NCBI GenBank assembly: GCA_019096065.1
Contig: JAGUCH010000003.1
Location: forward strand, 9,796,001-9,860,000
DNA from: Paracyclopina nana
Taxonomy: Eukaryota > Arthropoda > Copepoda > Cyclopoida > Cyclopettidae
Direction: 5' to 3'
DNA: 64,000 bases
Shown here one piece after another: positions 1,564-46,209 of the stretch. The position numbers and the translations under genes are program-made. The notes below the pieces were generated by a model. The model was not told the DNA's origin and ran no database searches. It was given only the letters and a program-made list of their open reading frames with translations. The stretch's first letter is position 1. Every line of letters starts with the position of its first letter.

Positions 1564-1564
1564 C
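1554..1564 (+). promoter_or_regulatory. gag-pol frameshift site
   Basis: The gag reading frame ends T TTA AAC TAG, a textbook slippery heptamer followed directly by the stop. A -1 slip here would meet a TAA at 1590 after about ten codons. The pol frame is instead the +1 (or -2) frame, open from 1559. Pol therefore appears to need a +1 or -2 shift at or near this heptamer, or stop-codon-coupled re-initiation. Confidence 0.55.
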
Positions 1565-4500: not shown

Positions 4501-6034
4501 CTACATTGGTAAGAAAAATCCAAAACATGAACTCGCTGAACTGCTGACTCTTGATAACATCGCAATGGAACAAGAAAAGGATGCCAATATTCAAAAAATG
4601 AGGAGAAATCCACCAAAAGGCTTTGCTTTTGAACAAAATGTTCTATACAAAACTGTTCAAAATCCAGACCAATCCACTGAAAGGAGCCTTATTTATATTC
4701 CCGATTCTCTTCTTGGTGTACTTTTAGCCTATCTTCATTTGGATTGTCATATAGGAGGAACAAGCTTGGCACGAATGGCTGCTATGACTCATTATCATCC
4801 CAAGTTATTTAAGTCAGCTTTAAACTTCACAATCCAATGTTATCTTTGCCAACTCGCCAAACCCAATCGACTTGGAAAGGCCAAGCTAAAACCTATCTCA
4901 TATGGAGAATCACCAAAAGGCCATACCTTTTCAATTGACATCCTCGAAGGCTATCCTGAGTTTTACAAAAGCTCCAAGATCCTTGTCATGATTGAGTACT
5001 TTACTGGTTACAAGATCATAGTACCCGTCAAGAATGCGACTGGTGACGAAATTGCCAAGATTATTGAACAATACATCATTGCAGTGTTTTCACCACCTAA
5101 AGTCCTCATCTCTGATGGTGCCTCCAACCTTGTCTCCTCATCAAAAGTCAGAAGACTTCTGGAGTATTATGACATCCACCCACATGTGACAATGCCATAC
5201 TCTCCTCAAGCTCACTCAATTGTGGAAAATGCAGTTCAACAAGTCAGCAACCTCATCCGGATTTTGACCAATCAACTTAAACTACCCTGGATCAAACTCT
5301 TGTATCTTGTTCAACTATCCTTGAACACTCGCCCCTCACCAAGAATTGGCAACATTAGCCCCATTTATGCTTACTTTGGAGTTGATCACGACAGACTAAG
5401 ACCAATTACAGAAAAGGACATTGTCGAACCAAGCACAATCAAAGACATCTGGAAAGCTCATGACGCCATTATACAAGAAGCAATCAATAAGAACACTCAG
5501 CTCAAAAAGCAAGCAAGAGAAAAGATTCCTGGAAAAGACATCAACTATGAGCCTGGCACTTACGTTTTCATGCTTGATAAGAGAAAACATGAAAAGCCAA
5601 AGATTTGGGTACGTTATCACACGAGCCCTTACCTGGTCCTCAAGAACTTGCAAAACACATGCCTTCTAAAAAGTTTCAATGGAGTTGTCTTTCCTGCTCA
5701 CAAGAATCTCCTGAAGAAATGCTCTCCTCGCTTCGCTGAGCTCTATGGAAATTTGCCATTAAGTGTTAGATTCATGCTTGGATCACACTTCACATTGGAG
5801 TCTCTCGAACCGTACATGGAAATCCAAAAGACTCCCGAATTCTTCGATGAGGACATTTTCAAGCCCATTGAAAAGGGCCGTGTAATGACACGTGGTGAAT
5901 CAAAAAGACTAAAGGAGCAAGAAAAAGCTCAAAGTGTCAACTCTCAGCTTCCAATCATTGACCAGATGTTCCTGGATGATGAAGAAGATGAACAAGCAAT
6001 GCCATATGAACCTACTGTACATTTCGCAGAATGA
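1559..6034 (+). CDS. pol: Pol polyprotein: protease, reverse transcriptase, RNase H, integrase (Ty3/gypsy type)
   Basis: The frame is open from 1559, just after an in-frame TAA at 1556, and has no early ATG, so it is probably made by ribosomal frameshift from gag. Domains in order: aspartic protease with DSGA at 1877; reverse transcriptase with catalytic YSDD at 3173-3184; RNase H with D near 3619, E near 4020 and D near 4095; integrase with an HHCC zinc site near 4735-4850 and a DDE core at 4937, 5114 and 5225. The last two acidic residues are 36 residues apart by my count, against the usual 35. A GPY-like C-terminal region follows near 5570-5710. About 95 extra charged residues (nt 3659-3949) interrupt RNase H. 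The whole frame is intact over 1491 codons. Domain order RT-RH-IN is that of Ty3/gypsy rather than Copia. Confidence 0.93.
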   Translation, partial: TSSALSKTATVKEEISLVTFSDISLADIDTEDDDNPTISSSIEPDWLDSDAALEIASSLDYQEISQVSKVLTPDIILEGLDLPVINESPLKTALTTDFGLKVDFTVDSGAQVSILSVKTFQELPKDKYSLSNEKLTLVDVQKNEIPQYQCPIELTFQLQGFQFKHTFFIASSSNLLGLDFITTHNLQIIQQKGRTNLIISFEQRSEQKSLPSPEGLDSWASVDEIEVLPGLNEVTGTLDLPDGQYNLSIPSESPLKTVGSLSVRGGKFTTTMENKSTSRFPLSCNEIIGKVTTEDETTNQIDEETVEPTGFPCLTTEEKDDWKMIIRDNHSHIDKSAVEDIISFIEKETPNLFSTHESDIGKIHEKFEIFFDIETTTEKPVYIKPYTLDPLREAQLADQLAELEKIGVLKKGFSPWAMPCFLVTKRNGTLRAVYNARELNKVTKPVKFPYKPINTIIEEISLANPKYFTTIDIASAFLSIPMTERAQKICAIVTNSGQWLPLRMIFGLSNAPSYYNYCMSRILDTADKSPCKSNFVCNYSDDVCLYSKSFELNIQQTKIILRTLYNAGIKLRPRKFQFAQKSIELLGKHLDQNGFSILPRHLSAVKNFKKPEDKHTLMSFIGLAQWNANLVYAFSEKLKPLTKLLRKDEDFAWGTEQDQAFDDIKNAIINSTTVYFVNYNEPLYLHYDSSLNAIAGYCYQIKSFSREEVSKWHEELYQEESLDSKSKLNTKHPVIPPSGKNNPGMVTLSPIDEALKQYESNLKTNNEELFIRDIRHEELDELEPISTYLQEKDKLHIICPVGFYSATLNKQQSRYTILELECLALVKSLEHFAHLLHGVPTTFVCGDNMALLWILKSSKLSPNPPPKLVRWCITISSMPFKCIFLHCQGKYNLCADAMTRNFPIVYKAVQNDGQLEPILITSPFKLGKVVTLNDLQEYLEKVYEEGFEPKFNGEQKLGTRKKKTKKTFSYIDSIQEKIQINYIGKKNPKHELAELLTLDNIAMEQEKDANIQKMRRNPPKGFAFEQNVLYKTVQNPDQSTERSLIYIPDSLLGVLLAYLHLDCHIGGTSLARMAAMTHYHPKLFKSALNFTIQCYLCQLAKPNRLGKAKLKPISYGESPKGHTFSIDILEGYPEFYKSSKILVMIEYFTGYKIIVPVKNATGDEIAKIIEQYIIAVFSPPKVLISDGASNLVSSSKVRRLLEYYDIHPHVTMPYSPQAHSIVENAVQQVSNLIRILTNQLKLPWIKLLYLVQLSLNTRPSPRIGNISPIYAYFGVDHDRLRPITEKDIVEPSTIKDIWKAHDAIIQEAINKNTQLKKQAREKIPGKDINYEPGTYVFMLDKRKHEKPKIWVRYHTSPYLVLKNLQNTCLLKSFNGVVFPAHKNLLKKCSPRFAELYGNLPLSVRFMLGSHFTLESLEPYMEIQKTPEFFDEDIFKPIEKGRVMTRGESKRLKEQEKAQSVNSQLPIIDQMFLDDEEDEQAMPYEPTVHFAE

Positions 6035-6080
6035 ATATTAGACAAATGTGATACAAATGATGATGGATGAATGATAACCT

Positions 6081-6103
6081 CTACACTCTACTTTGACTTC
6101 TAG
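6081..6103 (+). promoter_or_regulatory. Candidate splice acceptor for the env-like mRNA
   Basis: A pyrimidine-rich run ends in TTCTAG at 6103, seven bases before the first env ATG. This is the expected place for the acceptor of a subgenomic env transcript. The donor would lie upstream of the window. Confidence 0.4.
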
Positions 6104-6110
6104 CCCAACT

Positions 6111-7736
6111 ATGAGTACAAGGATGAAACAACTTCTGTGGAGTTTGGCGTTGGCAACACTGCTCCACAACACGAGTGTGACAAGCACTCCCTTCTGCAAG
6201 GCTTACAACATTGTGTCCTTGTCAGAAACACTCAATCAACTACATCAGCTCCTAGAGCCTCTAGTTGATGCCATCTCGAACCAAATTACTGATGTGGAGA
6301 CTTTTGCAAAAGGTCGCATTGTCAACGACAAAGTTTACAAGCTGATCAATGTTCAAGACAAGTTTGCCACTTCAAAATTGGTCTGCGAGATCGAGAAGAT
6401 GACTTTCATCAAGCCCAAAGGTGATTTTGCATCTGTTTTAAAGAAGATAGAGGCAGGTGTGAGAGACCCACCTAACTTCAAATTCGATGACAAGAAAATC
6501 TGGGTAAATCTTCAATATGACAAAAGAACTGATTCCTACTACTTCGACGGTGAACCATTTCCACTATACTGGGGAGACAATGTTGAGAATCTAAGTGTCA
6601 AGCCTACTTCATTTGATGAAAACAAGTGCTATCGGATCGTCGTACCAAACAATTACGACGACAACACTGTTTTTGTAATTGAAGATGTGGCTTGCAGGAA
6701 CGGACAAGCTTTGACACTGTGTGAAGCTGCCATTCCGGACAATTATGAAAAGTACACTTCCCTTCGAAAAGTTTACTCAGCAGAACTCACTACTATCAAA
6801 GACAACTTCCCAAATGGAAAAGAGTTAATCCAAGAGTTGAATCAAGCTGATTGGTGCGATCAATATCAAGAAAGCAATGTGGATGAGCTCTTTCTGGACC
6901 ACCCTTTACAAGAAGTGAAGAATCTACTAGAATCTACTCCACCCAATATGGAGCTGATCTTTGACCTTCTTCCTAATCTAGTGAATGATTATGTCACAGC
7001 GGACAATATTATTCAGAGATTGGATAATAGTGCAAAATCTATGGATGGAAACCAAATTTGCATTTGTGATGAAGAAGAAAAACAAAACTCCGCTGAAATC
7101 AACCCTCCTACTACAGTTATTAATGGCTCTATACCCACTAAGACAAAAAGGCCAAAGGTGATAAAAACACTTCCAGCTGATAAGCCATCAATCAACATCA
7201 CTGAGATTTTTGATAAGGCAAAAGAAAAACTGCCAGATTGGATCACTAAACATACAAATCCTAAAGTGCTGGATATTATATTTAGTATCATAGGCGGTAT
7301 ATCTGGAATTGTCACCTTGACCACAAGCCTTTTCCTCGTCATAAGAAGCTGTCGGAAAGATGGATTTATGTGCCATAAAAGAAAAAGATTTGTTGCTTTT
7401 AAAGTACCTGCCAACAAGGCGAGTCCCAAAACTACCAATCGTAATGAAACTGAAATGGCCACTTTTCTCCCATCAAAAAAGGACTCTTCAAGCGAGGGGG
7501 AAAATGATAAAAGTGATGTCTATTTTGTGACTCAAGATTCAAAATCAAAGAAACAAATGGACAACACAAAACCTTCAAGACCACCAAGAAGAAGCCCAAG
7601 AGCCAAAAGATCTGTAAAAGTGATTGATGTTGCTCATGTCCATAGCATTGATCCCAGGAGACACAGCAACTATTCCTGTTACACAAGTGAGGATGAAATT
7701 CAAGCAGCAAGCAAAATTCACCCCTACTATGACTAA
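6111..7736 (+). CDS. env: Envelope-like type I membrane glycoprotein of the retroelement
   Basis: About 541 residues from the first ATG (6111). The frame is open a little upstream, but without an ATG. A probable signal peptide covers roughly residues 5-24 (hydrophobic run LLWSLALATLL). The ectodomain has several cysteines and N-linked glycosylation motifs (NTS, NGS, NIT). A single membrane segment at about residues 386-411 (nt 7266-7343) is followed by a basic cytoplasmic tail of roughly 130 residues with a proline/arginine-rich patch. The position right after pol and this layout match the env genes of errantivirus-like elements. I see no perfect furin site and do not recognise the family by sequence. 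A good 3' splice site (CTTTGACTTCTAG, ending at 6103) lies just before the ATG, which suggests expression from a spliced subgenomic RNA. Confidence 0.65.
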   Translation: MSTRMKQLLWSLALATLLHNTSVTSTPFCKAYNIVSLSETLNQLHQLLEPLVDAISNQITDVETFAKGRIVNDKVYKLINVQDKFATSKLVCEIEKMTFIKPKGDFASVLKKIEAGVRDPPNFKFDDKKIWVNLQYDKRTDSYYFDGEPFPLYWGDNVENLSVKPTSFDENKCYRIVVPNNYDDNTVFVIEDVACRNGQALTLCEAAIPDNYEKYTSLRKVYSAELTTIKDNFPNGKELIQELNQADWCDQYQESNVDELFLDHPLQEVKNLLESTPPNMELIFDLLPNLVNDYVTADNIIQRLDNSAKSMDGNQICICDEEEKQNSAEINPPTTVINGSIPTKTKRPKVIKTLPADKPSINITEIFDKAKEKLPDWITKHTNPKVLDIIFSIIGGISGIVTLTTSLFLVIRSCRKDGFMCHKRKRFVAFKVPANKASPKTTNRNETEMATFLPSKKDSSSEGENDKSDVYFVTQDSKSKKQMDNTKPSRPPRRSPRAKRSVKVIDVAHVHSIDPRRHSNYSCYTSEDEIQAASKIHPYYD

Positions 7737-8535: not shown

Positions 8536-9440
8536 TATCAGCCCACAACGAAATCTACAATAAGTCCACATGGAGAAGATCAGCCCAAAAACATCACTAA
8601 CAATTTATTCATCATCTTTCTCATTCTCAAAAGTATCATACTCTAATGATATTTCATCACACAACATGACTTCCCTGGAAACAGCTTCCACTTGGTCATC
8701 TTCATCACCCATATTTGAAATAGTAATCTCAAGACTCTCTCTTGTCTCCATCATAATGCCTGATCCGGATTTTGAAGATGACGCTGCCCTTATTTGGTTG
8801 GGGTCCTCTAAAACCAGATCACGGAAATATGACAAGTCAATGTGAAGATTCTTCTCAAGAGCCCTCCGCACTTTTCTCCTGAATATTGGTGATCTCTTCA
8901 AATACCGGCACACCTCCTCGTACTGTCTCCTTTTCAACGACAAAATGATCCTTTTCAACGTATTCACCACTGATGCGGCCTCCAACCTAAAATTGACACT
9001 TCTCTGGTCTACCCCATCGCCATTCCCCAGTTCGTCCATGGGCAAACGATGGATCATCATAAGAAGATCGACATAGGCAATGCAAATCGACACCTAAATT
9101 GGAAAAATCACATTATTACAGACGTCGTGATTCATTTCTTCAATCTTACCTGACTGGTCCTAGCCTTCATCGTGGAAGGCTAGCTTCTTCTTCCGGGGGG
9201 ATATCTATGAAGAAATGGAACCAGACGACGACCACAAGTAGGTCACGACGCCCGATCTCTCTTTTTTGGCTCTACGCGCACGCCGCTGGTATATGTTACT
9301 TCTACCTGCATTTTTACTTCAGTATGCTAAAGTTTGCTTCGCTCACTTCACCCTAGCAAATAAAGTATACTCAAACCCGTTTCATCACTCTTCTACTCAT
9401 AAAACTGTTCGAACCCAGTTCTTCACCTCCATTTCATCAT
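8536..9440. other. 3' untranslated region and presumed 3' LTR of the retroelement (not delimited)
   Basis: The LTR should lie here, but the 5' LTR is outside the window, so its ends cannot be found by self-comparison. A polyadenylation-type AATAAA is present at 9359-9364. The antisense gene occupies the first two thirds of the interval. Confidence 0.35.
8605..9170 (-). CDS. Putative spliced antisense gene at the 3' end of the retroelement (169 aa, unknown)
   Basis: On the minus strand, ATG at 9170 starts a seven-codon exon that ends at 9150 with donor CAG|GTAAGA. A 56-nt intron ends at acceptor TTCCAATTTAG (9094), and the second exon runs 9093-8605 to its stop. The joined frame gives about 169 residues and has an in-frame stop upstream of the ATG. 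The middle is strongly basic (KRRQYEEVCRYLKR, RRKVRRALEK) and the C-terminal third is acidic and serine-rich. The stop lies 69 bp from the stop of the sense ORF, tail to tail. I do not recognise the protein. It could be an accessory gene of the element transcribed from the 3' side, as known for some retroviruses, or a host gene next to the insertion. The splice prediction is by eye. Confidence 0.5.
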
Positions 9441-9444
9441 AGAG

Positions 9445-10604
9445 GTGAGTGAGGTTGATGAGGATTGTGAGGTGAGTGAGGTTGATGAGGCGAGTGAGGT
9501 GAGTGAGGTTGATGAGGATTGTGAGGTGAGTGAGGTGAGTGAGGTTGATGAGGATTGTGAGGTGAGTGAGGTTGATGAGGTGAGTGAGGTGAGTGAGGTT
9601 GATGAGGTGAGTGAGGTGAGTGAGGATTGTGAGGTGAGTGAGGTTGATGAGGCGAGTGAGGTGAGTGAGGTTGATGAGGATTGTGAGGTGAGTGAGGTGA
9701 GTGAGGTTGATGAGGATTGTGAGGTGAGTGAGGTTGATGAGGTGAGTGAGGTGAGTGAGGTTGATGAGGATTGTGAGGTGAGTGAGGTTGATGAGGCGAG
9801 TGAGGTGAGTGAGGTTGATGAGGATTGTGAGGTGAGTGAGGTTGATGAGGCGAGTGAGGTGAGTGAGGTTGATTAGGATTGTGAGGTGAGTGAGGTTGAT
9901 GAGGATTGTGTGGTTGATGAGGTGAGTGAGGATTGTGAGGATTGTGAGGTGAGTGAGGTGAGTGAGGTTGATTAGGATTGTGAGGTGAGTGAGGTTGATG
10001 AGGATTGTGAGGTTGATGAGGATTGTGTGGTTGATGAGGTGAGTGAGGATTGTGAGGATTGTGAGGTGAGTGAGGTGAGTGAGGTTGATGAGGATTGTGA
10101 GGTTGATGAGGTGAGTGAGGATTGTGAGGAGAGTGAGGTGAGTGAGGTTGATGAGGATTGTGAGGTGAGTGAGGTTGATGAGGCGAGTGAGGTGAGTGAG
10201 GTTGATTAGGATTGTGAGGTGAGTGAGGTTGATGAGGATTGTGAGGTTGATGAGGATTGTGTGGTTGATGAGGTGAGTGAGGATTGTGAGGTTGATGAGG
10301 CGAGTGAGGTGAGTGAGGTTGATTAGGATTGTGAGGTGAGTGAGGTTGATGAGGATTGTGAGGTTGATGAGGATTGTGTGGTTGATGAGGTGAGTGAGGA
10401 TTGTGAGGATTGTGAGGTGAGTGAGGTGAGTGAGGTTGATGAGGATTGTGAGGTTGATGAGGTGAGTGAGGATTGTGAGGAGAGTGAGGTGAGTGTGGTT
10501 GATGAGGATTGTGAGGTGAGTGAGGTTGATGAGGTGAGTGAGGTTGATGAGGTGAATGAGGTGAGTGAGGCTGATGAGGCACGTGAGATGAGTGAGGTTG
10601 TGTG
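9445..10604. repeat. Minisatellite of 9-bp units
   Basis: About 1.16 kb is built almost only from the 9-mers GAGGTGAGT, GAGGTTGAT, GAGGATTGT and GAGGCGAGT, arranged in higher-order blocks (e.g. 27- and 45-bp blocks) that recur. Because the unit is a multiple of three without stops in several frames, it creates long but meaningless open frames on both strands. The plus strand is G-rich with strong purine bias. It starts right after the retroelement's 3' region. Confidence 0.95.
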
Positions 10605-10614
10605 CAATGTGTGA

Positions 10615-13600
10615 TTTTGGGATTTCTGTGTGTTACTATGGTTAATGAGGCTGGTGTGTGCATTGTGTGATTTCGGGATTTCTGTGCGCTGGTTATCTGG
10701 CCACTGCCTTTTATTTTACATAGTTTGGTAAGGGAACAGGGTATTTAGCGCTCAGGTTGATGTGAGTTGCAATAAAAAAGAATAATATTGAATTCTTAAA
10801 TCAAGTCTTGCAATTTTAAATAAATCAATGTAGCTTATCCTAGGCTAAGTAAAAAGCTGTGAAGAGTCTTCAATGATCTTAAAAGGTCCACTTTTGGATC
10901 ATAAACACTGATTGTGATCTAATCATGAATATCGGTTTTCACTAACTAGAAAATGTCCATATATAGATAAGCTTAGCTAGCGCGTCCACCACAGTGATCT
11001 AAATATTAACAAAAAATGTCCATTTATAGATCACAAAGATCAGTGATCTTTACAATCTTTATGATCTTTGAGATCTATATATGGATGGAGCCGGGTGCAA
11101 CTGCTGATGAGAAAAAGCTCCTTGGGGTGACAAAAAAGATGAGTATTTCTGGCAATGTATTGCATTTCTGCCACTTTTTGCATTTGTCTCACACAATACA
11201 CTGAGGTGTACATTGGATACATATGAAGACCACAAAATGGGTGCAAGGCTCTGCTAGTTGTAGCCTGCAATTTCCTCCTGCATATTCCTCTATCTAGGTC
11301 TGCAATTTGCTGAAGCTGAGATGTGAGACAGACACAAAGCTGCTGCTAGACTAACAACAATTCTCACCACCACCAGCTAAAAAGAAAACAAATAAATCTG
11401 GCATTTTCAGGCAGAAGTTGTAAATGTTTCAACACAAATATCACTACCCCCAGCTGTTTTCCGGTCAAAACATTTGTATTTTAACGATGTTTTGCTTCTT
11501 GTCTTAAGATACATTTTTTTGACAAAACGCCTCGCTCAAAATAAATGACAAGCTAATGAGACCTGGTTGGTTTCTTTCAATTTGGTTTTCAGTCCTCGAT
11601 ACTGAATTTGCACAACTCATTTCTTTCAGTAGAACGTAAAATGCGTATTTTACATGATTGTATTCAGCGTACTATTTCCTGAGATGAATATTATGACAGT
11701 TTGCAGACTTGTGAAATGCAGCTTCACCTGGCAACAAGAAACTCGTGAGATGCCATGCATGCTTTGCATCAATCAAGATCAAGTGGAAATGGAAACACAT
11801 TTGATGGATTTCAAAGAACAGCTCAAAATTAAGCCTGTAGTAGCAGTGCATCTGATGCACTCTCACAATTGCAAAATTTGCTCAGCTAGCAATTGTAGAT
11901 AGTTGACCATTTTTGCAATTGCATCAAATGCAACCTTCAAACTTTTGACACAGTAGCATATGTTGTTCTAGATTTGTATTAGCAATTTTGAGTGCTCAGC
12001 TCCTCTGATTGAGGATTATAGAAGTAATGGTAGGCAATTTTCTTATTTTCTAGCATTACATGGTGAAAAAGATAAATGTTGCATTTTGTCAAAGTGAAAG
12101 TGGCATGCTAGAATGTTACAATTGTGGATGAGCTTCCCATCAAATTTGCCTTTGTTGCATCCGCAATTCAACATTTGCCATCGTTTGCTATGCTTTTGTT
12201 GTTGGTATTATGCGAGGGATAAATCATGCAATTTTGCTGCTAGCTTTTGAAACAGCACACATCTCATTTTGCTTTCTACTTTGACTAGTCATACGGGAAT
12301 TTATAGCATATGCAAAAGTTCTCTGCTCAAAAAGAGGAAACTGTTTTTAAGTTCTATTTAAAAGGGCAATGTGCACAAATACAGCTGGGCCTTAATATTC
12401 AAGTGTTGTATGACTTACCCAGTCCTTCAAATCCCTTACCTAGAGGAATAAAAAGCAGAGTTAGATACTTTGATTAGAGCATATCTAAAAAGTATGTATT
12501 GAACTTGAATTTTTGTATTCAGATACAATTTTTCTACTTTAAAAAATGTATTCTAATCAAATGACGGAGAAATGAAACTCTTTTGTGGTCTAGTATGTTT
12601 GGATTCAATCTCCAAACTGAATTCAACTTAGAAAAGGTTAATCCACAAATACATCAAGATTTTCAATACATTTATTTCAGTTTGTCTTACAACCTCGAAT
12701 AGTGGGCGTTCCCTCACTAATGCAGAACTACAAGCATTTTACTAGCTTTATTATAGACCATTCTGATTTTCATCAAGTCAACAAGGCCAGTTGATGGACT
12801 GACATGGCCTTTGTCTACCACTGCAATAATAACACGAAGGCCAATTATTTCTGCATAATCTCGACTAATCGGTGCGAGACACGAGAACAATGTCAGATAA
12901 TCAGGCTTCAAATTAATAAGCCTATAGTAGTATATGAGCATACATGTGATATCATGTCATGATAATGGGATTTTCATCAAGCACTACAGTTACTAAATGG
13001 CATCTACGTAATGTAAGGACCATTTGCGAGCACAATGCTTTCTAATTGCCTAAAGAAGCATCATCAAATGCTTTTTCTTGCTTTCTAATGCAAGCTTTAT
13101 TGTGTGGGTAGGACAAGTGGTAATAATATCTTTCCTGAGTTTGCTTACAAACTCCCACGAGAGATTTTCGCGCACTTTCTCACAGTCATTATTGCAGACG
13201 ATGAGGATGAGATATGCCACTAAATATACTACCACTAGGCAAACCACAACAATCACATTTAATTAAAGAAAAAATATCTTGACGCAATTATAGTACATTG
13301 TCTAAAAACATTTGATTTCATTTGGTTTGGATACATGATTCCGACCAAATTAGCTAAGAAATGTAAGCAAATGCCTTTAAATCGAAATACGATTGTTAGT
13401 AGATGAACTTTACATAAAGTGAATAATAGCACCAATCACTCTGATCATTGACTTGAGCACAGCCAATTTGCATGGGATAGAAGCATATAATAACTGGTAA
13501 TAAAATTGTGGCTATTCATGTTGAAGGCTTTTTTCGAGCATCTATCTTTATAAAGAGAGGATGCTGAAGAAAAAGGGGAAATAGAGTTGGAAAGGCAATA

Positions 13601-37167: not shown

Positions 37168-37275
37168 CTTTCAGTTTCGTGGACTGAAAACAAAATCACG
37201 AGGAGACAATCGCGTCTCATCAATCCGGAATTTGATTCGGATACATTCTTGCGTCAAAAAAATGTATCTTACGCC
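37168..37275 (+). repeat. Hairpin-headed repeat just upstream of the exchanger start exon
   Basis: Palindrome TTTCAGTTTCGTGGACTGAA, then AATCGCGTCTCAT, then AAAAAATGTATCTTACG. It ends about 45 bp before the splice acceptor at 37319, so it may contribute branch-point or silencer sequence. Confidence 0.7.
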
Positions 37276-37319
37276 AAAAGCCAAAAGAACGCTGAAAATA
37301 AAACTTGCATCCTTTTTAG

Positions 37320-38349
37320 ATATGTTGCCAAGCAGCATACGAGGGGCCATGTTGGTCGGCCTCCTCATCTTGGCCATCTCGACCTCGGTGACCTTTGCTG
37401 AGGAAGAGGAGGAAGAAGAGGAAGCCACTGGAATCCCTGAGGGTGTCAACTGTGCTGACGGCCTCCTCATCCCCATCTGGCGCCCCTATGACAACCTCAG
37501 CGGCGGAGACCGTTTCGGTCGAGGCCTCCTCTACATCCTCCTCATGGTCTGGCTCTTCATCGGTGTCTCCATTGTCTCCGACAGGTTCATGGAGTCCATC
37601 GAGATGATCACTGCCCAGGAGAAGGAGGTCACCGTCAAGGACACCAAGACTGGCAAGAACCAAATCATCATTGTAAAGGTCTGGAACGAGACTGTGGCCA
37701 ACTTGACCCTCATGGCTTTGGGATCATCCGCACCCGAGATCATGTTGTCCGTCATCGAGATCTGGGCCAAGGGCTTCAAGGCTGGTGACCTGGGACCTGG
37801 CACCATTGTCGGATCCGCGGCCTTCAACCTCTTCTGTATCATCGGCCTTTGCATGTATGTCATCCCGGATGATGAGGTGAGGAAGATCAAGCATCTCCGC
37901 GTCTTCATCGTCACTGCAACCTGGTCTGTATTCGCTTACATCTGGCTGTATGCCATCCTGGGTCCAATTTCCTATGGTGTGGTCCAATCCTGGGAGGGCA
38001 TCCTCACCTTCCTTTTCTTCCCTGCCACTGTCTACACCGCCTATGTTGCCGACAGGAGGCTCTTCTGCTACAAGTACATGAGCAAGACCTACAGGATGAA
38101 CAAGCATGGCATCGTCGTCCAGACTGAGAAGGGAGACATTGAGTCTCGCGCCCAGGAAAAGTTCAAGGAGTTTGAGGAGGACGAGAACCAGGATCCTGCT
38201 TTTGCTGAATTCGAGAGGAACAGGCGCGAATACATCAACACCATGAAGAGAATCAGGCTGGAAAATCCCGACATCTCACCCTCTGAGCTCGAGCTGAGGG
38301 CCAGGGAGGAGATCATGAGCAAGGGACCCAAATCCAGGGCTTACTACAG
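37320..38349 (+). other. Exchanger exon: signal peptide, first membrane block, start of the cytoplasmic loop
   Basis: Acceptor CCTTTTTAG at 37319 and donor TACAG|GTACTA at 38350. The exon encodes a signal peptide (cleavage probably after TFA), a run of eight glutamates, the alpha-1 repeat near 37690-37830 and the charged loop up to AYYR. It joins exon 38654 in phase to give R-LQATRKL. Confidence 0.9.
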
Positions 38350-41300
38350 GTACTATGAATGCCTTGAAATGAGTATTCTATGAACACACAATTCATAAAT
38401 ACATCATAGATGCCTTATATGTATTCCTGGATACATAGGAATGTATTGCTGGAAAGATCAAATTCATTTGTGGATACAGCACATGTATTCTCAGATCTAG
38501 TAATTACGTATTTTTGGATACATACCTCAATAATGCATGTAATGTATTCAGGAATACGTGTATCCTGGAATACAGCATGTTTCTTGAACTTTTACAGAAT
38601 CTACGAGTACTCGATATGTATCCGTAATTAATCATGAACTATGCTCCTTTTAGACTCCAGGCTACCCGCAAATTGGCTGGTAAGGGCAACATGGACAAGG
38701 CCTTGAGGGCTCGCCTCGAGGCTGAGGCCGAGGCTGAGAAGGCTGCTCTTGAAGGCGAGAAGGAGATAGTTGAGGAGAAGAAGGAGGATGGCGTGATGAG
38801 GATGTTCTTTGACCCTCCCCACTACACAGTCATGGAGAACGTGGGCAAGTTCTTTGTCACCATTGTTCGTGAAGGTGGAGATCTCAACCTGCCCGTGCAA
38901 ATCGACTACAAAACTGAAGATGGAACCGCCTGCTCACCTGATGACTACACCGGTGTATCTGGCACCTTGACCTTTGGACCTGGAGTCACTGAGCAGAAGG
39001 TCGAGCTGGAAGTCATGGATGATGATGTATTCGAGGAAGATGAACATTTCTACATCAGGGTGTCCAACCCAAGGCGCAAAGACGGCATTGAGATCCCCAA
39101 CATCAACGTTGAAGGACAAATGGTACCCTCCCTCCAGCTTGGCACTCCCCATATGGCAACAATTATGATCCTTGATGATGACCACGGTGGTGTCTTCCAA
39201 TTTGAGGAGCACGAGGCTGAGATCAACGAGAGCATTGGTACATTCGAGCTGAAGGTTGCCAGGCAATCCGGAGCTCGTGGCAAGGTTGCCATTCCCTATA
39301 CCACTGAGGACGGAACTGCCAAGGCTGGAAAGGACTATGAGCATGTCGAAGGAGAACTTGTCTTTGCCAACGAAGAGAATGAGTACGTACTTTTTCATTT
39401 TTGTATTCGAATACGCTTTTATGGCCTAACGTATTGAACGTATTGAGCCAATTAATGAGACTCGATTGGCATCGCTTGTTTTTGTTTTCAGTCTCGAAAA
39501 CTGAAATTAGGGAGCAACGATAAATATTGCTATTCGGCAAGATTTTCACGTGCTTTGAAGATGAACGGTGCATTATTGTAGTAGTCGTATGACTTTCCCC
39601 TCAAACTTTCTTATGCTTAAGTATGGAGTAGTTGAAGCTGTGGGCACTTGTCTAAATGTGAAAGTCTTTTTAGCAAGATGTTTTTCAAGGTCTCGACATT
39701 CACTTCTCTTTTGAAAGCAATAAATACGTTCTGACGTTGGAAAGCTGGCTTGATTAAGATCACTAGAAGGGAGCAGCAAATGGAAAATTTGCCTTTTGGG
39801 TAAACTCGTCAAGCTTTGCAATTTTCTCATTTTTACATCAATGTATTTGCTATGACTACTAAAAATAAGCCAGCTTGACTTGGCTGCTCCCAATTTTCAT
39901 GCTTCATAATGTCAACTAATCATAATGCAGCAGTGAAAGCCATACAAATGCAGCTGTATAGAGAGTTATGCTACTATGTATCATCTGTTCTAGCGAAAAA
40001 ATTGCCACATTTTGCTTAATCATATGCAAGAAAATTACAATCAGATTATTATTTCTCCCCTCTTAAATGAAAAACACTTCATGGTTTTTTCTTCTAGGAA
40101 AATGATTGAAATTCCCATCATGGAAGAGGACAGTTATGAAAAGAACGTGGTTATGTATGTTGTGATTGGTGAACCCAAACATATTGCTGGTAAGTGAACA
40201 TGTCCAATTTTGGCTGATACAATTTTACTGCTATTTACCTTAATGAAAATCCTTCTTGAGGATCAACAGCTTGTTGGGGTGAGAAACAGTGGCAAAAATG
40301 GCGTAGACTATCCATGGCTTTTAATCAGAGTTTTTACGTGAACTGCGAGGAAAACGACACTTCAAGCAAAGTTTCGTGGGATAGCAAAGGTTTTTTTTCA
40401 GAGCACTAGATCAAATCACCCTTTTGAATTGCAAAAGATAGCTTAGCTGTATTTCTTCTCGCACACTTCGTAATTAGAGCCATTTACATCATCTGTATTC
40501 CCCTTTCTTGTATTGTAGGTGCTGCTGGCGAAGGAGGTAACACAAATCGACCCCTCTCTTTTTATGTTTTGTAGTATTACATTTTTTGAGTGCTTGTCTT
40601 GTTTATAGTCCTTAAAAACCCTTTAAAATTCATCCAGCCAAGCATAAATTATGCTCATGCATACTTTTTCATGACTTTGACCTTCAAGATGTATTCCTAC
40701 TGTATGTATTGGTACTGATTTGGCCCATTCGTTAAAATGTATTTTGTACCCTGTTTGGTGGCTATCCAGTTGTAGGTCACATGTAGAATTCAGGCTTACA
40801 TTTGACAGTGCCTGTATTACTCTTCTCCCCATGCTGTATTCTGTGCTGTATTTGACTTGATACAACGTTGTATTTCAGAGGGTGTCAATTATGAGGAATT
40901 GGATGCCAAGAAGCCCGAGGATTTGACTGAAGATGAGAAGATTGCTCTTCTTGGTAGGCCAAGGTTGGGAGATGTGACCAAGATTCAAATCAGGATCAGG
41001 GAGTCCAAGGAATTCAAGGTTGGCTTCCTTTTTAGAGCTTTTTGTGATGAAGCTCTTTTAATGCAGAATTATTCTCCCTTTAATTTCCCTGTAGAGCTCT
41101 GTGGACAGGATGATGCAACGTGGAAATGCTTCCCTAATGGTTGGTGCTGCTTCGTGGAAAGATCAATTCTTCGAAGCTTTCTCTGTTCAAGCCGGTAACT
41201 TTCCACTCTTTCCCAGCATTTACAACTCTAATAACACAAGCATAATCAAGTTGAAAAGAAATATTTTCTTTTGGTCTTTGATTTCAGTTTCGAAAACTGA

Positions 41301-44300
41301 AGCTTATGCTCTGTTCATCTACAAACTCCTTAAGGAATCGGAACGCGAAATTCCTTTGCGCAAACGAGTTCTCAGTACATAAACTAGCTGCGTAGAGTTG
41401 TCATTATGCACGGATTTGTCATAATGCATTCCTTAAGGAACGGTAGATGAACAGAGTATTAAATTAAAGGGTGACAATCGAGTCTCATTGCTTTGAGATC
41501 TGTATCGGATACTTTTGCTTACCAAAAAGATCTTACGGCGCGGCGTAAATCAAAACATCGCCGATTCTTAGAATTGCTTTCATTTTTGGTACGATTATAG
41601 GTGATGATGATGAAGAAGAAGGTGAAGATGGTGGTGAAGGAGAGGAGAAAATGCCTACTTGTGGAGACTACATCATGCACTTCCTTACCCTGTTCTGGAA
41701 AGTTCTGTTTTCGCTCATCCCTCCAGCTGGTAATTTCATTCACAATAGTCCTAAAATACATCATTTAGCTTACATAGGAATATCAGGGGGTTCTTACAGT
41801 CAAGGGGAAAACATGATTACATCCATGAGGAAAATGACTCCCAATAACCCAATAAATGTTTTGATTTGCATTTTCTGCCAAATTAAGCTGAGTATGAGAA
41901 TTCAGCACTTGGCTGGCTTCAATGTACCACAAATAATAAGCCTGTGATCATGATCAAAACCACATGTGCTTGACTGATGTAATTGGTACACTTGACCAAT
42001 TTAATTCCCTATTATACGTACTACTGCCTGAAGGGCTTCCATGGAGGCTTCAGTACCTTCACCATTTCCTTACTTATAATTTGCTTTACCTGAGCAATTA
42101 ATGAACACAAGGAAAAGTTGCTGAAAATTACCATGTACCATGGATTTTAACCCCCTCCCTTTTAGAGTAACTGAAGCTGTTTTACTTTTTCTTCACATAT
42201 AGGAATGTTCAACGGGTATTTAACCTTTATAACATCCATCCTCATGATCGGCTTTACGACAGCCGTCATTGGGGATGTGGCAGGACACCTAGGCTGCTTT
42301 ATATTCCTTAAGGATTCCGTCAATGCTATTGCTTTTGTGGCGTTGGGCACAAGTGTTCCTGGTACTGCACTTTCCACTTTTTTATGTCCAAAATTGCGTG
42401 CTGTTTTCTTAGCATGGTTTTCATTAACAGCTTAACTGACACAAAACACAAAATACTTTTGGGAGTAGGAGAATTAGCAATTAAGGAAGTATTCTTAACC
42501 AAATGTATTCAAAAATGCAAGCATAAGATTTCATGTTAAGCGTTCATGAACGCATGTTCTGTATTGTAGAATACATGCTATGCATTCAAAAATACATTCA
42601 ATGTATTCAAAAATGCAAGCCATGTACTCAAAAGTTGTATTCAACAGAACAAGCCACGTATTCAAAAATACTTGCAGTGTATTCTAAAATACATGCAGTC
42701 AATTCAAAAGATTAAGCTATAACCTCAGAATCTAGGATTAAGTTTCTGTGTCTAGGAAACTATGTTCTTTCTAAAAAAAAATGTTGCTAATCAAAAATAG
42801 GAATTGCCAACGGATACCCCTGCTTCGTCATCTCAATTCTGTTTATTGGTGCTTGTACTGCTGTCATTGGTGATGTTGCTGGCCACTTGGGCTGCTTCAT
42901 CTTCCTCAAGGATTCCGTCAATGCCATCGCCTTTGTTGCCCTCGGAACTTCAGTTCCCGGTACTTTTCGCGTTTCCCCGCTTAAAAGAAATGTATTCCCC
43001 GAGAATACAATGAATACACCTTTCACGAGAGAAGGGAAATAATGCAAGTGATGTTATTTTTTCTCTCACCAAAACGCTGCTCTAAACAGACAAGTGTAAA
43101 GGCTGGCCATCATTTGTCAGTTCGATATTTTTTATTGGTCTTCTCACTGCTGTGATCGGTGATGTGGCTGCACACTTTGGCTGCATCAGTCGCATCAAGG
43201 ACTCAGTTACTGCCATAACAATTGTAGCTCTTGGAACGAGTGTGCCAGGTTTGGTTTTCCACTAATCTTACTTCATATTTTTGGTCTCTTTTTCATTTTG
43301 TTTTGATTGTCTGTAGCTCGTTTTCGTATTTATTGAAGTAACTTGGAGCATACTCCTAAGTTAAGCAAGGTATATAATTTTTACGTGAAACGTACTTAAA
43401 AGTGTGCCTACCTTGCTTTGCTGAGTCTTACTTTAATAAATACCGAAGATAACGAAGTTTTTCCTAAAAATGTATTCTATGAGTTTTTCAACTGATTGCA
43501 TTTTTCAGATACATTTGCCAGCAAGGTTGCTGCCATTCAGGATGACACTGCTGATGCCTCTGTTGGTAATGTGACTGGTTCCAATGCTGTCAACGTCTTC
43601 TTGGGCATTGGTATTGCTTGGTCAATGGCTGCCATTTACTGGGAGGCTCAAGGCTTGGCCTTTGAGGTCGCACCTGGCAGGTAACAACTGAAAAAACTGA
43701 AGTGGTATCAAAAATGTACCCTATTTGATACCAATTGTATATTTTGGTATGCAGTGCAGTAGAGTCTGAAACGTTAAACGTTGAACTGACTAACACAAGC
43801 TGATATTAATTGTTATGCTTAAAATGCGGTAATTTTCAATTGTTTAACTTGACTTGGGCGCGTTACAACTCATAATTCAACAAATATTGGTATGTATTTT
43901 CAATTACTTGATGCACGTAGTACTTTAAATTGTTCACTATGTAAGATGGTTCATTTTCTTGAGTTACTTTTTCATAAAAAATGTCTTGGCTCCTATGAAA
44001 AATTACCGCTCGAAAATCAATGCTCTTAAAAGAGAAAACACTGGGAAGAAAGCACTCAAACAAACTCACTCACACCAAAATTAACACTTTTGAATTGTCC
44101 AAAATGAGGTGCTCATCTACATTCACATGCCTTTTTTGGTCGAAAAAAAAACGTTTTCACATTCAATTCAGTTCCATGGACTGAATTCGAAATTGAATGA
44201 TAACTATCAAGTTTCATTAACATGGAATTTGTTTTGAATACGTAAGTGTGCCAAATAGCTGTATCGAATACATTTCACTCTTCTCTGCTTAGATGAGCAC

Positions 44301-46209
44301 TTTATTTGCTTGCTTTTCTACTAACATACTATTTTTTCCACTGTTTTTTATTTCTTTCTTTTCATTTTTAAATGTCGATGATGTATTTCAGCTTGGGATT
44401 CTCTGTAACAATCTTCTGTGTTGAGGCTCTCTTGGCCATCGGCATTTTGATGATTCGTCGTAATCCAGCCATTGGTGGAGAATTGGGAGGTCCCAAGAGC
44501 GTCAAGATTGTCACCTCCTCCATCTTCTTCTTGTTCTGGGTCTTTTATGTCTTCATCTCAGCTCTTGAAGCCTACAAAGTCATTGACCCTGGATTCTAAA
44601 CCAAATATTGACTAAATGCTCAGCTCAGATTTCTTCAAGTGTTGTTGAACAAAAATCCTCCAGCACAAAAAATATCAGACCAAAAATCAGCAGCTTTCTC
44701 TTCTTCACTGAAAATAATGCGAAACTAGTATTCAACTGAAAAGAAAGGAGAAAGCTTGGAAAATCATGTTAACATCAATTAATGAGAGTCAAGCAATTTC
44801 GAGTTGTTGCTGATTTTATGAGCAACAGTAAAACGATGCTACTTTTTCCTTGGTTTAGTTATAGTCTCAGATTTTTTGACACGTACACACTCTTCTTCTC
44901 TCAAGCTACGTTCAACGCCACTGTGTTTTTGGTATCTTTGTTTTAAATGAATTGTGCGGTTGAAATCATCCATTCAATCCAGTTGTTAACAACCCTCGTA
45001 TTTGAAATACATATGCCTTCAAAAAACGTACTAACACCTTGAGAATCATTCATTAAGGCATTTTTAAGGCTTTTATTCAACCCTCATTTGGTCAAGCTTA
45101 CAATTTCTATTTTCCCCTTTTTATGCTTTTCTTAAGGCAATCAGCAAGGATTTTTTGAATGACCTTTTGATATCTTGAATATCACAGTATTTGACACAAC
45201 ATGTCAGCTACAAGACTTGGTAATTTTGTTTATTTTCTAAAAGTATAAATTGGTCATTAACCAGATGTATTTTAATGTGCTTATTTTGCAATTTCCCCAC
45301 TTTGGTGGTGATTTTCATTTGATAGAAGATTAGAGGTTATTTTATTTAGGCTTTTCAGTGTATCTGTTTTGTTTTTTATTGTCTTGAAGGATCCCCACAA
45401 TTTTGCAATTATCATTTATGCCTCTTGGTTAAAAGGCCATTTAGCATTGGCCAATCAGATCTTCGCTGAGTTCTTATTTTTTGTAACTTGAAACCTCATT
45501 AGACCTTATAAAATTATTCAGGCAGAGGTAATGCACCTATTAATTAAATCAACAGCCCCGTTGATTGAATCTTCATTTTGTCCTATTTTTTTATACTGTA
45601 AATGTAGCTAATTCTTGGAAAAACCTAGGAAATATGAAGCCCAAACAATATTTTAAATCTAAATTTTCTGGTTGGTCAATCACACTCGGTTCCTACAAAA
45701 GTCTGAAAAAGTGCCCAATTTTCCAAATCATATTCACCTGCAGAGGCTCCATTAATGTTAAGCGAGGCTCTTTGGAGCTCTATGACTCACCAACCACAGC
45801 GCCAATTGGCTCCAAAGTTGGTAGGATTCTTCAGTAGAACCTAATAGTAGTAGAACCTGAATCAGCTGGCTCTGGTTTGAGGCCGTTATGTTATTTTATC
45901 TTAAAGGTCACTAGCACATACTGGTAAAAATCACATGAAAAGTATTATGTAAATTCGAGTCTCGAAGCATATTTAACAATTTTGGCCTTGTATTATTTCA
46001 GCTTGGGCTTTTCCGTGACGATTTTCTGCACAGAGGCTCTTGTGGCCATCGCCATTTTGATGCTTCGTCGTAACGCTGCGGTTGGTGGGGAATTGGGCGG
46101 GCCTCGCAAAATCAAGATTTTCACAGCCTCCATTTTCTTCTCCTTCTGGGTGATATACGTCATGCTATCGGCTTTGGAAGCCTATGGCGTCATCCAGCCT
46201 GGATTCTAA
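37320..46209 (+). CDS. NCX: Na+/Ca2+ exchanger (NCX/CALX family), complete coding region with alternative exons
   Basis: Plasma-membrane antiporter that moves Na+ in for Ca2+ out. Coding exons: 37322-38349, 38654-39382, 40098-40189, micro-exon 40519-40536, 40879-41018, 41095-41194, 41601-41729, one of three 159-nt exons (42203, 42801, 43090), 43509-43680, then one of two terminal exons (44392-44599 or 46002-46209). Phases fit throughout and one full path is 2775 nt, 924 residues, normal for the family. Seen in order: signal peptide ending TFA, an acidic stretch, the first membrane block with alpha-1 signature GSSAPEIMLS, a basic XIP-like stretch after it, two Calx-beta domains (exons 2-6) with acidic Ca2+-binding loops such as LDDDHGG, then alpha-2 (VIGD...LKDSV...ALGTSVP|DTFAS) and the last membrane segments. 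The start ATG 37322 follows acceptor CCTTTTTAG. GT/AG boundaries are read by eye. Confidence 0.93.
38350..38653 (+). repeat. Exchanger intron with degenerate TGTATTC repeats
   Basis: The 304-bp intron is dominated by degenerate copies of TGTATTCNNGGATACAT, with many complementary GTATTC/GAATAC pairs. A similar tract lies in the intron between the first two alpha-2 exons. Confidence 0.6.
38654..39382 (+). other. Exchanger exon: Calx-beta 1 and start of Calx-beta 2
   Basis: Acceptor CTCCTTTTAG and donor AATGA|GTACGT. It encodes the first Ca2+-binding Calx-beta domain, including the acidic segments MDDDVFEEDEHF and ILDDDHGGVF, and opens the second domain (YTTEDGTAKAGKDYEHV). In this family these domains sense cytosolic Ca2+ and set exchange activity. 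Confidence 0.9.
40519..40536 (+). other. 18-nt in-frame micro-exon of the exchanger
   Basis: Acceptor TTGTATTGTAG and donor GGAG|GTAACA bound exactly 18 nt, encoding GAAGEG with the flanking bases. Upstream and downstream exons also join in frame without it, so it can be a cassette. It lies within the second Calx-beta domain, where other NCX genes are alternatively spliced. Confidence 0.65.
41309..41456. mobile_element. Small MITE nested in a hairpin-headed repeat, exchanger intron
   Basis: Inverted repeats CTCTGTTCATCTAC (41309-41322) and GTAGATGAACAGAG (41443-41456), with inner inverted CCTTAAGGAA boxes. It splits a hairpin-headed repeat: the palindrome part is at 41282-41303 and the body resumes at 41457 with CAATCGAGTCTCATT. 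Confidence 0.75.
42203..42361 (+). other. Exchanger alternative alpha-2 exon, version a
   Basis: 159 nt, phase 1 at both ends; acceptor CTTCACATATAG and donor CCTG|GTACTG. It encodes a membrane helix and the first half of alpha-2, with GHLGCFIFLKDSVNAIAF then VALGTSVP. Versions a and b are alike after the first ten residues. Confidence 0.88.
42480..42725 (+). repeat. ATGTATTCAAAAATACATGC-type repeats between alpha-2 exons a and b
   Basis: About eight imperfect copies of a roughly 20-bp unit of alternating TGTATTC and AAATACATGC, so the tract is largely self-complementary. Confidence 0.7.
42801..42959 (+). other. Exchanger alternative alpha-2 exon, version b
   Basis: 159 nt, phase 1 at both ends; acceptor AATCAAAAATAG (poor pyrimidine tract) and donor CCCG|GTACTT. 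It encodes GIANGYPCFVISILFIG followed by the alpha-2 half. Its codon choice is like that of the constitutive exons. Confidence 0.88.
43090..43248 (+). other. Exchanger alternative alpha-2 exon, version c (divergent)
   Basis: 159 nt, phase 1 at both ends; acceptor GCTCTAAACAG and donor CCAG|GTTTGG. It encodes DKCKGWPSFVSSIFFIG and AAHFGCISRIKDSVTAITI. It is the most different version: Thr replaces Asn in SVTAI/SVNAI, Phe replaces Leu in AHFGC/GHLGC, and an Arg-Ile replaces Phe-Leu before KDSV. Confidence 0.88.
43509..43680 (+). other. Exchanger constitutive exon completing alpha-2
   Basis: Acceptor GCATTTTTCAG and donor GGCAG|GTAACA. It encodes DTFASKVAAIQDDTADASVG then NVTGSNAVNVFLGIG, the strongly conserved second half of alpha-2 that every splice version must share. 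Confidence 0.92.
44106..44303 (+). repeat. Hairpin-headed repeat with inverted ends
   Basis: Here the family has matching ends GAGGTGCTCATCTAC (left) and TTAGATGAGCAC (right), with palindrome TTCAGTTCCATGGACTGAA inside. It lies about 90 bp before terminal exon 1 of the exchanger. Confidence 0.7.
44392..44599 (+). other. Exchanger terminal exon, version 1
   Basis: 208 nt from acceptor TGTATTTCAG to TAA 44597-44599. It encodes the last two membrane segments, with RRNPAIGGELGGPKSVKIV and the end ALEAYKVIDPGF. Its 3' UTR holds a 23-bp block (44713-44735) repeated exactly after version 2. Confidence 0.9.
44600..46001 (+). other. 3' UTR of terminal exon 1 and intron before terminal exon 2
   Basis: Contains the conserved 23-bp block at 44713-44735. 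Otherwise AT-rich with no exon seen; the 90-codon ORF at 45565-45837 has no recognisable character. Confidence 0.5.
46002..46209 (+). other. Exchanger terminal exon, version 2
   Basis: 208 nt from acceptor TATTATTTCAG to TAA 46207-46209, exactly the length of version 1. It encodes RRNAAVGGELGGPRKIKIF and ends ALEAYGVIQPGF. Splicing straight from 43680 to here skips version 1. Confidence 0.9.

Follow-up and report, generated by a model that had tools for sequence, protein, structure and literature searches.

When three consecutive exons of the same length and phase encode the same segment of a membrane transporter, the question arises whether they are alternatives used one at a time, whether they are joined in one protein, or whether only one of them is still in use, and which property of the transporter their exchange would change. 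This question is raised by a gene of the copepod Paracyclopina nana, found in the window (the whole stretch of 64,000 nucleotides analysed here). The answer that we hold to be very likely is that this is an SLC8/NCX gene with three mutually exclusive exons, that splicing picks one of them and thereby swaps a gate helix, and that the isoforms most likely differ in gating or in their control by the cytoplasmic loop.

An exchanger gene with three tandem exons

The coding part of the gene, which contains nine introns, lies on the plus strand. According to its translation and to Pfam, the first coding exon (37262..38349) encodes the N-terminus, the N-terminal membrane half with the alpha-1 repeat (GSSAPE) and the start of the cytoplasmic loop. 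It is followed by an exon for CBD1 and the beginning of CBD2, the Calx-beta domains (38654..39382), by an exon inside CBD2 (40098..40189), by an 18-nt microexon also inside CBD2 (40519..40536), by the exon with the end of CBD2 (40879..41018) and by one for the loop past CBD2 (41095..41194). The exon preceding the array (41601..41729) encodes an acidic stretch as well as the helix that immediately precedes TM6, and its phase-1 donor, after 41729, feeds the array. The exon receiving the array (43509..43680) finishes the Asp codon of GTSVPD and encodes the remainder of TM7 and TM8. Two versions of the last exon, each with TM9-10 and a stop, lie at 44392..44599 and at 46002..46209; the first is closer to the tails of copepod-type relatives, and the second, 75% identical to it, is in frame.

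In isoform c1 Pfam recognises PF01699 in two stretches, PF03160 in two and PF16494, the NCX loop domain, in one, and among PDB entries human NCX1 is the closest by sequence (E 2e-280). GTSVP is present in every alternative exon, with the Asp supplied through a split codon, so that both signatures given for nematode NCX, GSSAPE in alpha-1 and GTS(I/V/L)PD in alpha-2 (PMC4232491), are found. By these domains and signatures the gene is an SLC8/NCX (arthropod CALX) Na+/Ca2+ exchanger, its exchange activity being predicted. Tigriopus and Lepeophtheirus, the named copepods among the matches listed, match the protein at 81-82% over the C-terminal region. Elsewhere in the window, positions 1-7733 hold an LTR-retroelement-like block, with an open frame at 1559-6031 (reverse transcriptase and RNase H, plus an integrase match that stays under the curated cut-off) flanked by frames at 1-1560 and 6078-7733, and positions 9400-10744 hold a long low-complexity repeat in which several frames are open (LTHLINLTHLT and similar).

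The three alternative exons, a (42203..42361), b (42801..42959) and c (43090..43248), all on the plus strand, have 159 nt each, are flanked by ag on the 5' side and gt on the 3' side, and are in phase 1 at both ends. Each encodes TM6 and the first half of TM7. Exons a and b are of the KDSVNA type, b being the nearest to most copepod-type environmental proteins, and c, which starts with Asp, is of the KDSVTA type and belongs to a conserved clade of its own. Coordinates, borders and open proteins thus bear out the first-pass annotation, made from the letters of the window, in its claim of three consecutive exons of this length and phase fitting the exon at 43509. The three also end alike in G, the first letter of the Asp codon of GTSVPD, to which the next exon adds AT. 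They are adjacent, homologous, equal in length and phase, and compatible with common neighbours, as is expected of tandem exons. When exon a was searched against the whole genome (92 Mb, 10 contigs), b (E 2e-21), c (E 2e-13), a itself and one paralogue match on another contig were retrieved; chance as the origin of the likeness is excluded.

Combining the three units with the two last exons gives six forms, each of 2835 nt with one terminal stop and 944 amino acids. With last exon 1, the frame is also kept by skipping of all units, by the three pairwise inclusions and by the triple inclusion. Since the combinations tested stay in frame, a frame shift or nonsense-mediated decay cannot be what enforces exclusivity.

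Two further sites of possible variation were seen. Tigriopus isoforms X4 and X2 differ solely in six residues missing from X4, which match the microexon in place; for this reason the microexon probably acts as a cassette exon where CBD2 is classically spliced, and a second alternative site in this gene is likely. The second version of the last exon is probably an alternative terminal exon, and none of the relatives is clearly of its type: in a comparison of 136 rows, which takes in truncated tails and one lamprey protein, 128 are closer to version 1, four are closer to version 2 by one or two residues and four are ties, giving no support to version 2 as a conserved alternative. An NCX-like paralogue on contig C2 has two open last-exon copies (L024:3109-3384 and L024:3512-3769, minus strand) and one match only for the TM6/TM7 unit, so that terminal-exon duplication is present in two paralogues.

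The divergence among the three exons bears on their maintenance. Over 52 whole codons, a and b share 43 amino acids, a and c 31, and b and c 34; at the nucleotide level, 108, 96 and 104 of the 159 positions are identical. The values of pS/pN are 0.83/0.16 for a-b, 0.87/0.24 for a-c and 0.68/0.23 for b-c, with rough Fisher P values, from rounded site counts, of 3e-14, 4e-12 and 3e-7. Of the non-synonymous differences between a and b, 15.5 fall in the first half of the unit and 3.25 in the second. With synonymous sites near saturation, a, b and c are by these estimates old duplicates under purifying selection. That the other copies carry disabling changes, an outcome which the first-pass annotation had named as fatal to its proposal, is contradicted by this selection and by the conservation in relatives described below.

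Two readings of the locus can be judged at this point. If one exon were used and the others were decaying duplicates, the acceptor of exon b, which by eye has a poor pyrimidine tract, and the donor of exon c, by eye an atypical one (CAG followed by gtttgg), would find an explanation, as would the lack of a clear type-a relative among those listed; the excess of synonymous over non-synonymous differences in all three pairs, the intact splice borders, the absence of stops, and the presence of b-type and c-type units in spliced proteins of relatives make such decay very improbable. An assembly artefact or allelic expansion deserves mention because such cases exist, the Oppiella model (P0001), set aside as a member of the array list, showing a duplication of two nearly identical whole C-termini. 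In the window the exons share only 96-108 of 159 nt, the introns between them are unlike and related copies occur in other genera, and the probability of an artefact is practically negligible.

The exchanged segment within the transporter

The unit aligns without gaps to residues 760-812 of human NCX1 (8jp0), directly before D813, which is among the ion-coordinating residues and lies in TM7 (PMC10897212). The fifty residues that lead to TM6 in the human structure extend up to 757, in the numbering of the paper concerned (PMC10550945). An AlphaFold2 model of Tigriopus X1, of limited quality as a whole (mean pLDDT 66.5, pTM 0.48) and with blocks of 74-81 over residues 751-800, places helices at 752-784 and 788-814, the exon corresponding to 751-803. 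Foldseek with this model returned four human NCX1 structures on top, 8sgj being the best, with modest query TM-scores of 0.40-0.43. So the exon would start at the start of TM6 and end in the middle of TM7. It had been annotated as a membrane helix plus the first half of the alpha-2 repeat; the helix stands, and the unit is TM6 and the first half of TM7 rather than mainly the repeat. Nor is it established that two units in series would invert the topology, as had been argued, the unit comprising about one and a half helices.

The three units are invariant at 31 of 53 positions, and ALGTSVP is identical in all of them. The 22 variable positions fall, in 8jp0 numbering, at 760-778, the first half of TM6; at 787-795, its end and the following loop; and at 800, 803 and 804, in the first turns of TM7. 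The first half of TM6 follows the cytoplasmic loop and is therefore its cytoplasmic side; the differences between a and b are confined to this half (761-778). Position 800 is T in human NCX1 and in c, and N in a and b. Thus, the difference of c inside the repeat (SVTAI against SVNAI) is real, yet it is c that has the usual KDSVTA, a and b having KDSVNA. The N of SVNA is not specific to copepods, being present in a lamprey NCX too.

It had also been claimed that splicing here alters the ion path itself. This has to be revised: the ion-coordinating residues are invariant, and what is altered is the gate helix, together with the helix that leads on to the ion site. TM1 and TM6 are termed gating helices (PMC10897212), and their sliding is inferred to open and close the site in alternating access (PMC10550945). 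The helix preceding TM6 touches the cytosolic portion of TM1 and TM6 (PMC10550945). Choosing among the units would exchange all of TM6, the sliding gate helix, together with the loop joining it to TM7 and the first half of TM7, and every isoform would keep ALGTSVP and the split-codon Asp of the ion site. Because ALGTSVP-D, with its ion ligands, is the same in the three units, the switch is more likely to act on gating than on ion coordination. The isoforms would most likely differ in the speed and in the ion or voltage dependence of the inward-outward transition. A difference in the inhibition or activation of transport by the cytoplasmic loop that leads into TM6 is also likely, given that the helix in front of TM6 touches the cytosolic portion of TM1/TM6, where a and b differ. 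The choice between a and b, restricted to the cytoplasmic-side first half of TM6, could be a fine tuning, and c would be a larger change, reaching also the far end of TM6, the loop and the first turns of TM7.

One unit per molecule in most relatives, and arrays in other arthropods

Three protein searches gave 6150, 2433 and 147 proteins over the threshold, and the best 120 of each yielded 347 different proteins. In 324 of these 347 relatives exactly 54 residues separate the PP motif from DTF(A/P)S, as corresponds to one unit; the spacing is 107 (two units) in five and 160 (three units) in one. Among proteins from environmental or transcriptome sources, 156 of 161 have one unit by length, and the other five, which are short at one end, variant in the flanks or genomic-looking, have one unit motif each; none of the 161 has two or more. 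Named records show one unit by length in 167 of 186 cases and several in 11.

The environmental set, which is not all copepod, includes 129 proteins of the VNAIAF type and five of the c type. At least 900 residues are present in 87 of the 129, and their source contigs, where given, are mostly of 3-5 kb. Such long proteins on contigs of this size, against nine coding introns in the gene of the window, lead us to infer that most VNAIAF-type environmental proteins derive from cDNA. Two cases are more direct. Tigriopus isoforms X1 and X2 have four differences in 929 columns, all within the unit. The environmental proteins P0065 and P0231, one b-type and the other c-type, have identical flanks (18 residues upstream and 120 downstream, 138/138) and units only 60% identical, and they presumably come from one species. 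No other pair among the 321 proteins compared has flanks at least 97% identical and a unit at most 85% identical, which is unsurprising since the database was collapsed at 90% identity. In another environmental protein, P0124, the unit starts c-like (GKLKGWPAFFGSIAGIGLLTAV) and ends a/b-like (GDVAGHLGCFIFLKDSVNAI), and may be an assembly chimaera or a recombined further exon.

The proposal that the exons are used one at a time is therefore supported in relatives by the 161 environmental proteins with one unit each, by Tigriopus X1/X2 and by P0065/P0231, and the splicing machinery of the window species would also pick one of the three.

Two or more units in series are found in 11 of the 347 relatives (best 120 per search), all of them arthropod gene models, and no multi-unit protein from outside the arthropods is among the 347. 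There are five units in Petrolisthes cinctipes; five, one of them partial, in Petrolisthes manimaculis; four, one of them partial, in Tigriopus californicus; three each in Cloeon dipterum and Timema bartmani; and two each in Orchesella cincta, Cryptotermes secundus (a model named isoform X2), Cyprideis torosa, Portunus trituberculatus and two models of Artemia franciscana (where the name isoform X2 occurs too). Two further Timema models have a second-unit fragment. Of 11 named rows with a longer stretch, the fish proteins P0310 and P0347 were counted for this list as one unit, whereas P0228 and P0230, whose length could not be parsed, were counted as several. A search of other arthropod NCX genes for tandem copies, which the first-pass annotation had suggested, has thus given arrays of two to five units. 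Their holders are, as we take it, a copepod, decapods (crabs), a branchiopod (brine shrimp), an ostracod, a springtail and insects (mayfly, termite and stick insect).

These models have to be weighed against the alternative that the exons are not exclusive, and that the inclusion of two or more gives longer exchangers with extra membrane segments. In its favour, no double or triple inclusion tested disrupts the frame, and there are exactly two units in the Cryptotermes, Artemia (two models), Orchesella and Cyprideis models and two to five in the others. Most of the multi-unit models look like gene-finder fusions; the Cryptotermes and Artemia ones, bearing the name isoform X2, may reflect occasional double inclusion. 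That the exons are not exclusive is improbable, given that no two-unit protein is present in the environmental set. AlphaFold2 of the two-unit Cryptotermes model gives pLDDT below 50 over 649-841, a weak argument taking into account its thin, gappy alignment and that it is a different protein from Tigriopus X1.

If exclusive use is accepted as the better reading, the means by which one unit would be chosen can be narrowed. Introns too short for splicing do not account for it: the b-c intron has 130 nt, more than the 76 nt of intron 41019-41094 of the same gene. Clusters of the Dscam type, with docking and selector sequences, are arthropod arrays in which three or more exons exclude one another. 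The array of the window is small by comparison, and a windowed duplex scan of its four introns shows no docking/selector pairing above shuffles (best -21.5 kcal/mol, shuffle mean -21.6, the best being reached by 29 of 60 dinucleotide shuffles). For whole-intron duplexes, the real energy was reached among 150 shuffles by 2 for I2-I3 (the b-c intron with the last array intron, the best duplex), 5 for I0-I3, 7 for I0-I1, 15 for I1-I3, 21 for I1-I2 and 142 for I0-I2; these energies are not relied on, since the program links many stems that lie far apart, over hundreds of bases, and pairing between the introns may still contribute to the choice. A complementarity of 42500-42523 with the acceptor at 43493-43517, in two overlapping pairs, is absent from the best of the windowed scan. 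The a-b intron contains, upstream of b, degenerate 21-nt repeats (TGTATTCAAAAATGCAAGC-like; 42502..42717, plus strand), which together with the poor tract before b and the gtttgg donor after c are candidate regulatory features that might matter. As a separate observation, TGTATTC is enriched on the coding strand of the introns of this gene, with 13 occurrences where the remainder of the window predicts 0.9, in a comparison that covered many 7-mers.

Age of the array and its significance

The ancestry of the units was approached with a tree of 54 units over 53 columns, from which the partial Tigriopus copy 3 and the second Oppiella copy were left out; its bootstrap is not settled, and 24 of 51 inner branches are open. 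The clade of exon c (support 100/96) also takes in four environmental proteins, a fragment that looks genomic and Tigriopus copy 4. A second clade (99/93) unites exons a and b with four environmental proteins, Lepeophtheirus and two units of Tigriopus. Because both clades contain Tigriopus units, the split of c from a/b most likely predates the divergence of the window species and Tigriopus. Tigriopus copy 2 and the X1 unit group together (99/89), and therefore a and b of the window need not match them one-to-one. No clear type-a orthologue is present among the relatives listed; the nearest, P0225 (87/90 in the tree), shares 47 of 53 residues with a and 46 of 53 with b, and exon a is the weakest of the three cases for conservation.

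Two decapod copies have their partner in another genus: Petrolisthes 1 groups with Cherax (99/98), and Petrolisthes 4 with Portunus 1 (100/99). Three groups with insects were obtained: Hermetia, Papilio and Timema 1 (98/87); Timema 2, Schistocerca and Cryptotermes 1, plus a spider (81/85); and Timema 3, Homalodisca and Cryptotermes 2 (81/87). The mayfly copies have no placement in the 54-unit tree. A single pancrustacean origin of the array is plausible from these groupings; as for the descent of all arthropod copies from one ancestral array, a tree of 53 columns with so many open branches does not decide.

The same clades bear on the most serious alternative, according to which exclusive splicing is real and the isoforms transport alike, the switch serving for expression control or trafficking, or being near-neutral. 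The identity of ALGTSVP in all units, their 31 invariant residues of 53 and the mere four residues that separate Tigriopus X1 from X2 speak for it. Against it, the c clade has kept its own sequence at the end of TM6 and in the loop from the window species to Tigriopus, and for two decapod copies the tree gives well supported orthologues in a second decapod genus, hardly expected of neutral redundancy. We regard equal transport as unlikely, though by far the most credible of the competing explanations, and a difference in gating or loop control is still preferred.

Alternative exons have been described in this family. NCX1 and NCX3 carry the mutually exclusive exons A and B in CBD2, where, according to a figure legend of a 2022 review (PMC9820601), the spliced region is exclusively located. 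The likeness lies in the same transporter family and in mutually exclusive alternatives that tune the exchanger. The A/B exons change regulatory Ca2+ binding in the cytoplasmic CBD2, whereas the array described here, unlike them, maps to TM6-TM7 and would replace a transmembrane gate helix. In Drosophila, another arthropod exchanger is spliced in CBD2, CALX1.1 and CALX1.2 being five residues apart (PMC9820601), and the 18-nt microexon of the window is probably at a comparable place; the account of CALX in that review mentions no splicing of TM6. The substitution of tandem duplicated exons is enriched in ion channels, and NALCN isoforms arising from such exons are selective for calcium or sodium (PMC9741552). 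In those cases, too, tandem homologous exons are exchanged in membrane ion proteins, but they are channels, whereas the gene of the window encodes a secondary transporter that would swap its moving gate. The terms SLC8A and sodium calcium exchanger are absent from the main text of that article (PMC9741552). Gene models with these exons are already public; in the titles and abstract openings of the open-licence literature no report of TM6/TM7 alternatives in NCX was found, nor any paper describing the array.

A broader proposal, which we put forward tentatively and with rather less than even confidence, is that of a pancrustacean splice switch older than the split of crustaceans and insects, which would swap TM6 and the lead-in of TM7, leave the ion ligands untouched and set alternating access by tissue or stage. 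If true, this would be a modular way to set how fast alternating access runs, which direction it favours or how the loop controls it, and in the gene of the window the microexon, the array and the last exons could give 2 x 3 x 2 = 12 forms. Some arthropod NCX gene models, which string copies together, are probably wrong, and predictably so. A splice switch at the gate would amount to a set of natural chimaeras, kept by selection and differing only in TM6 and half of TM7. Thus, the array would make two things testable: how turnover depends on the sliding door formed by TM1 and TM6, and in what way the cytoplasmic loop influences this door.
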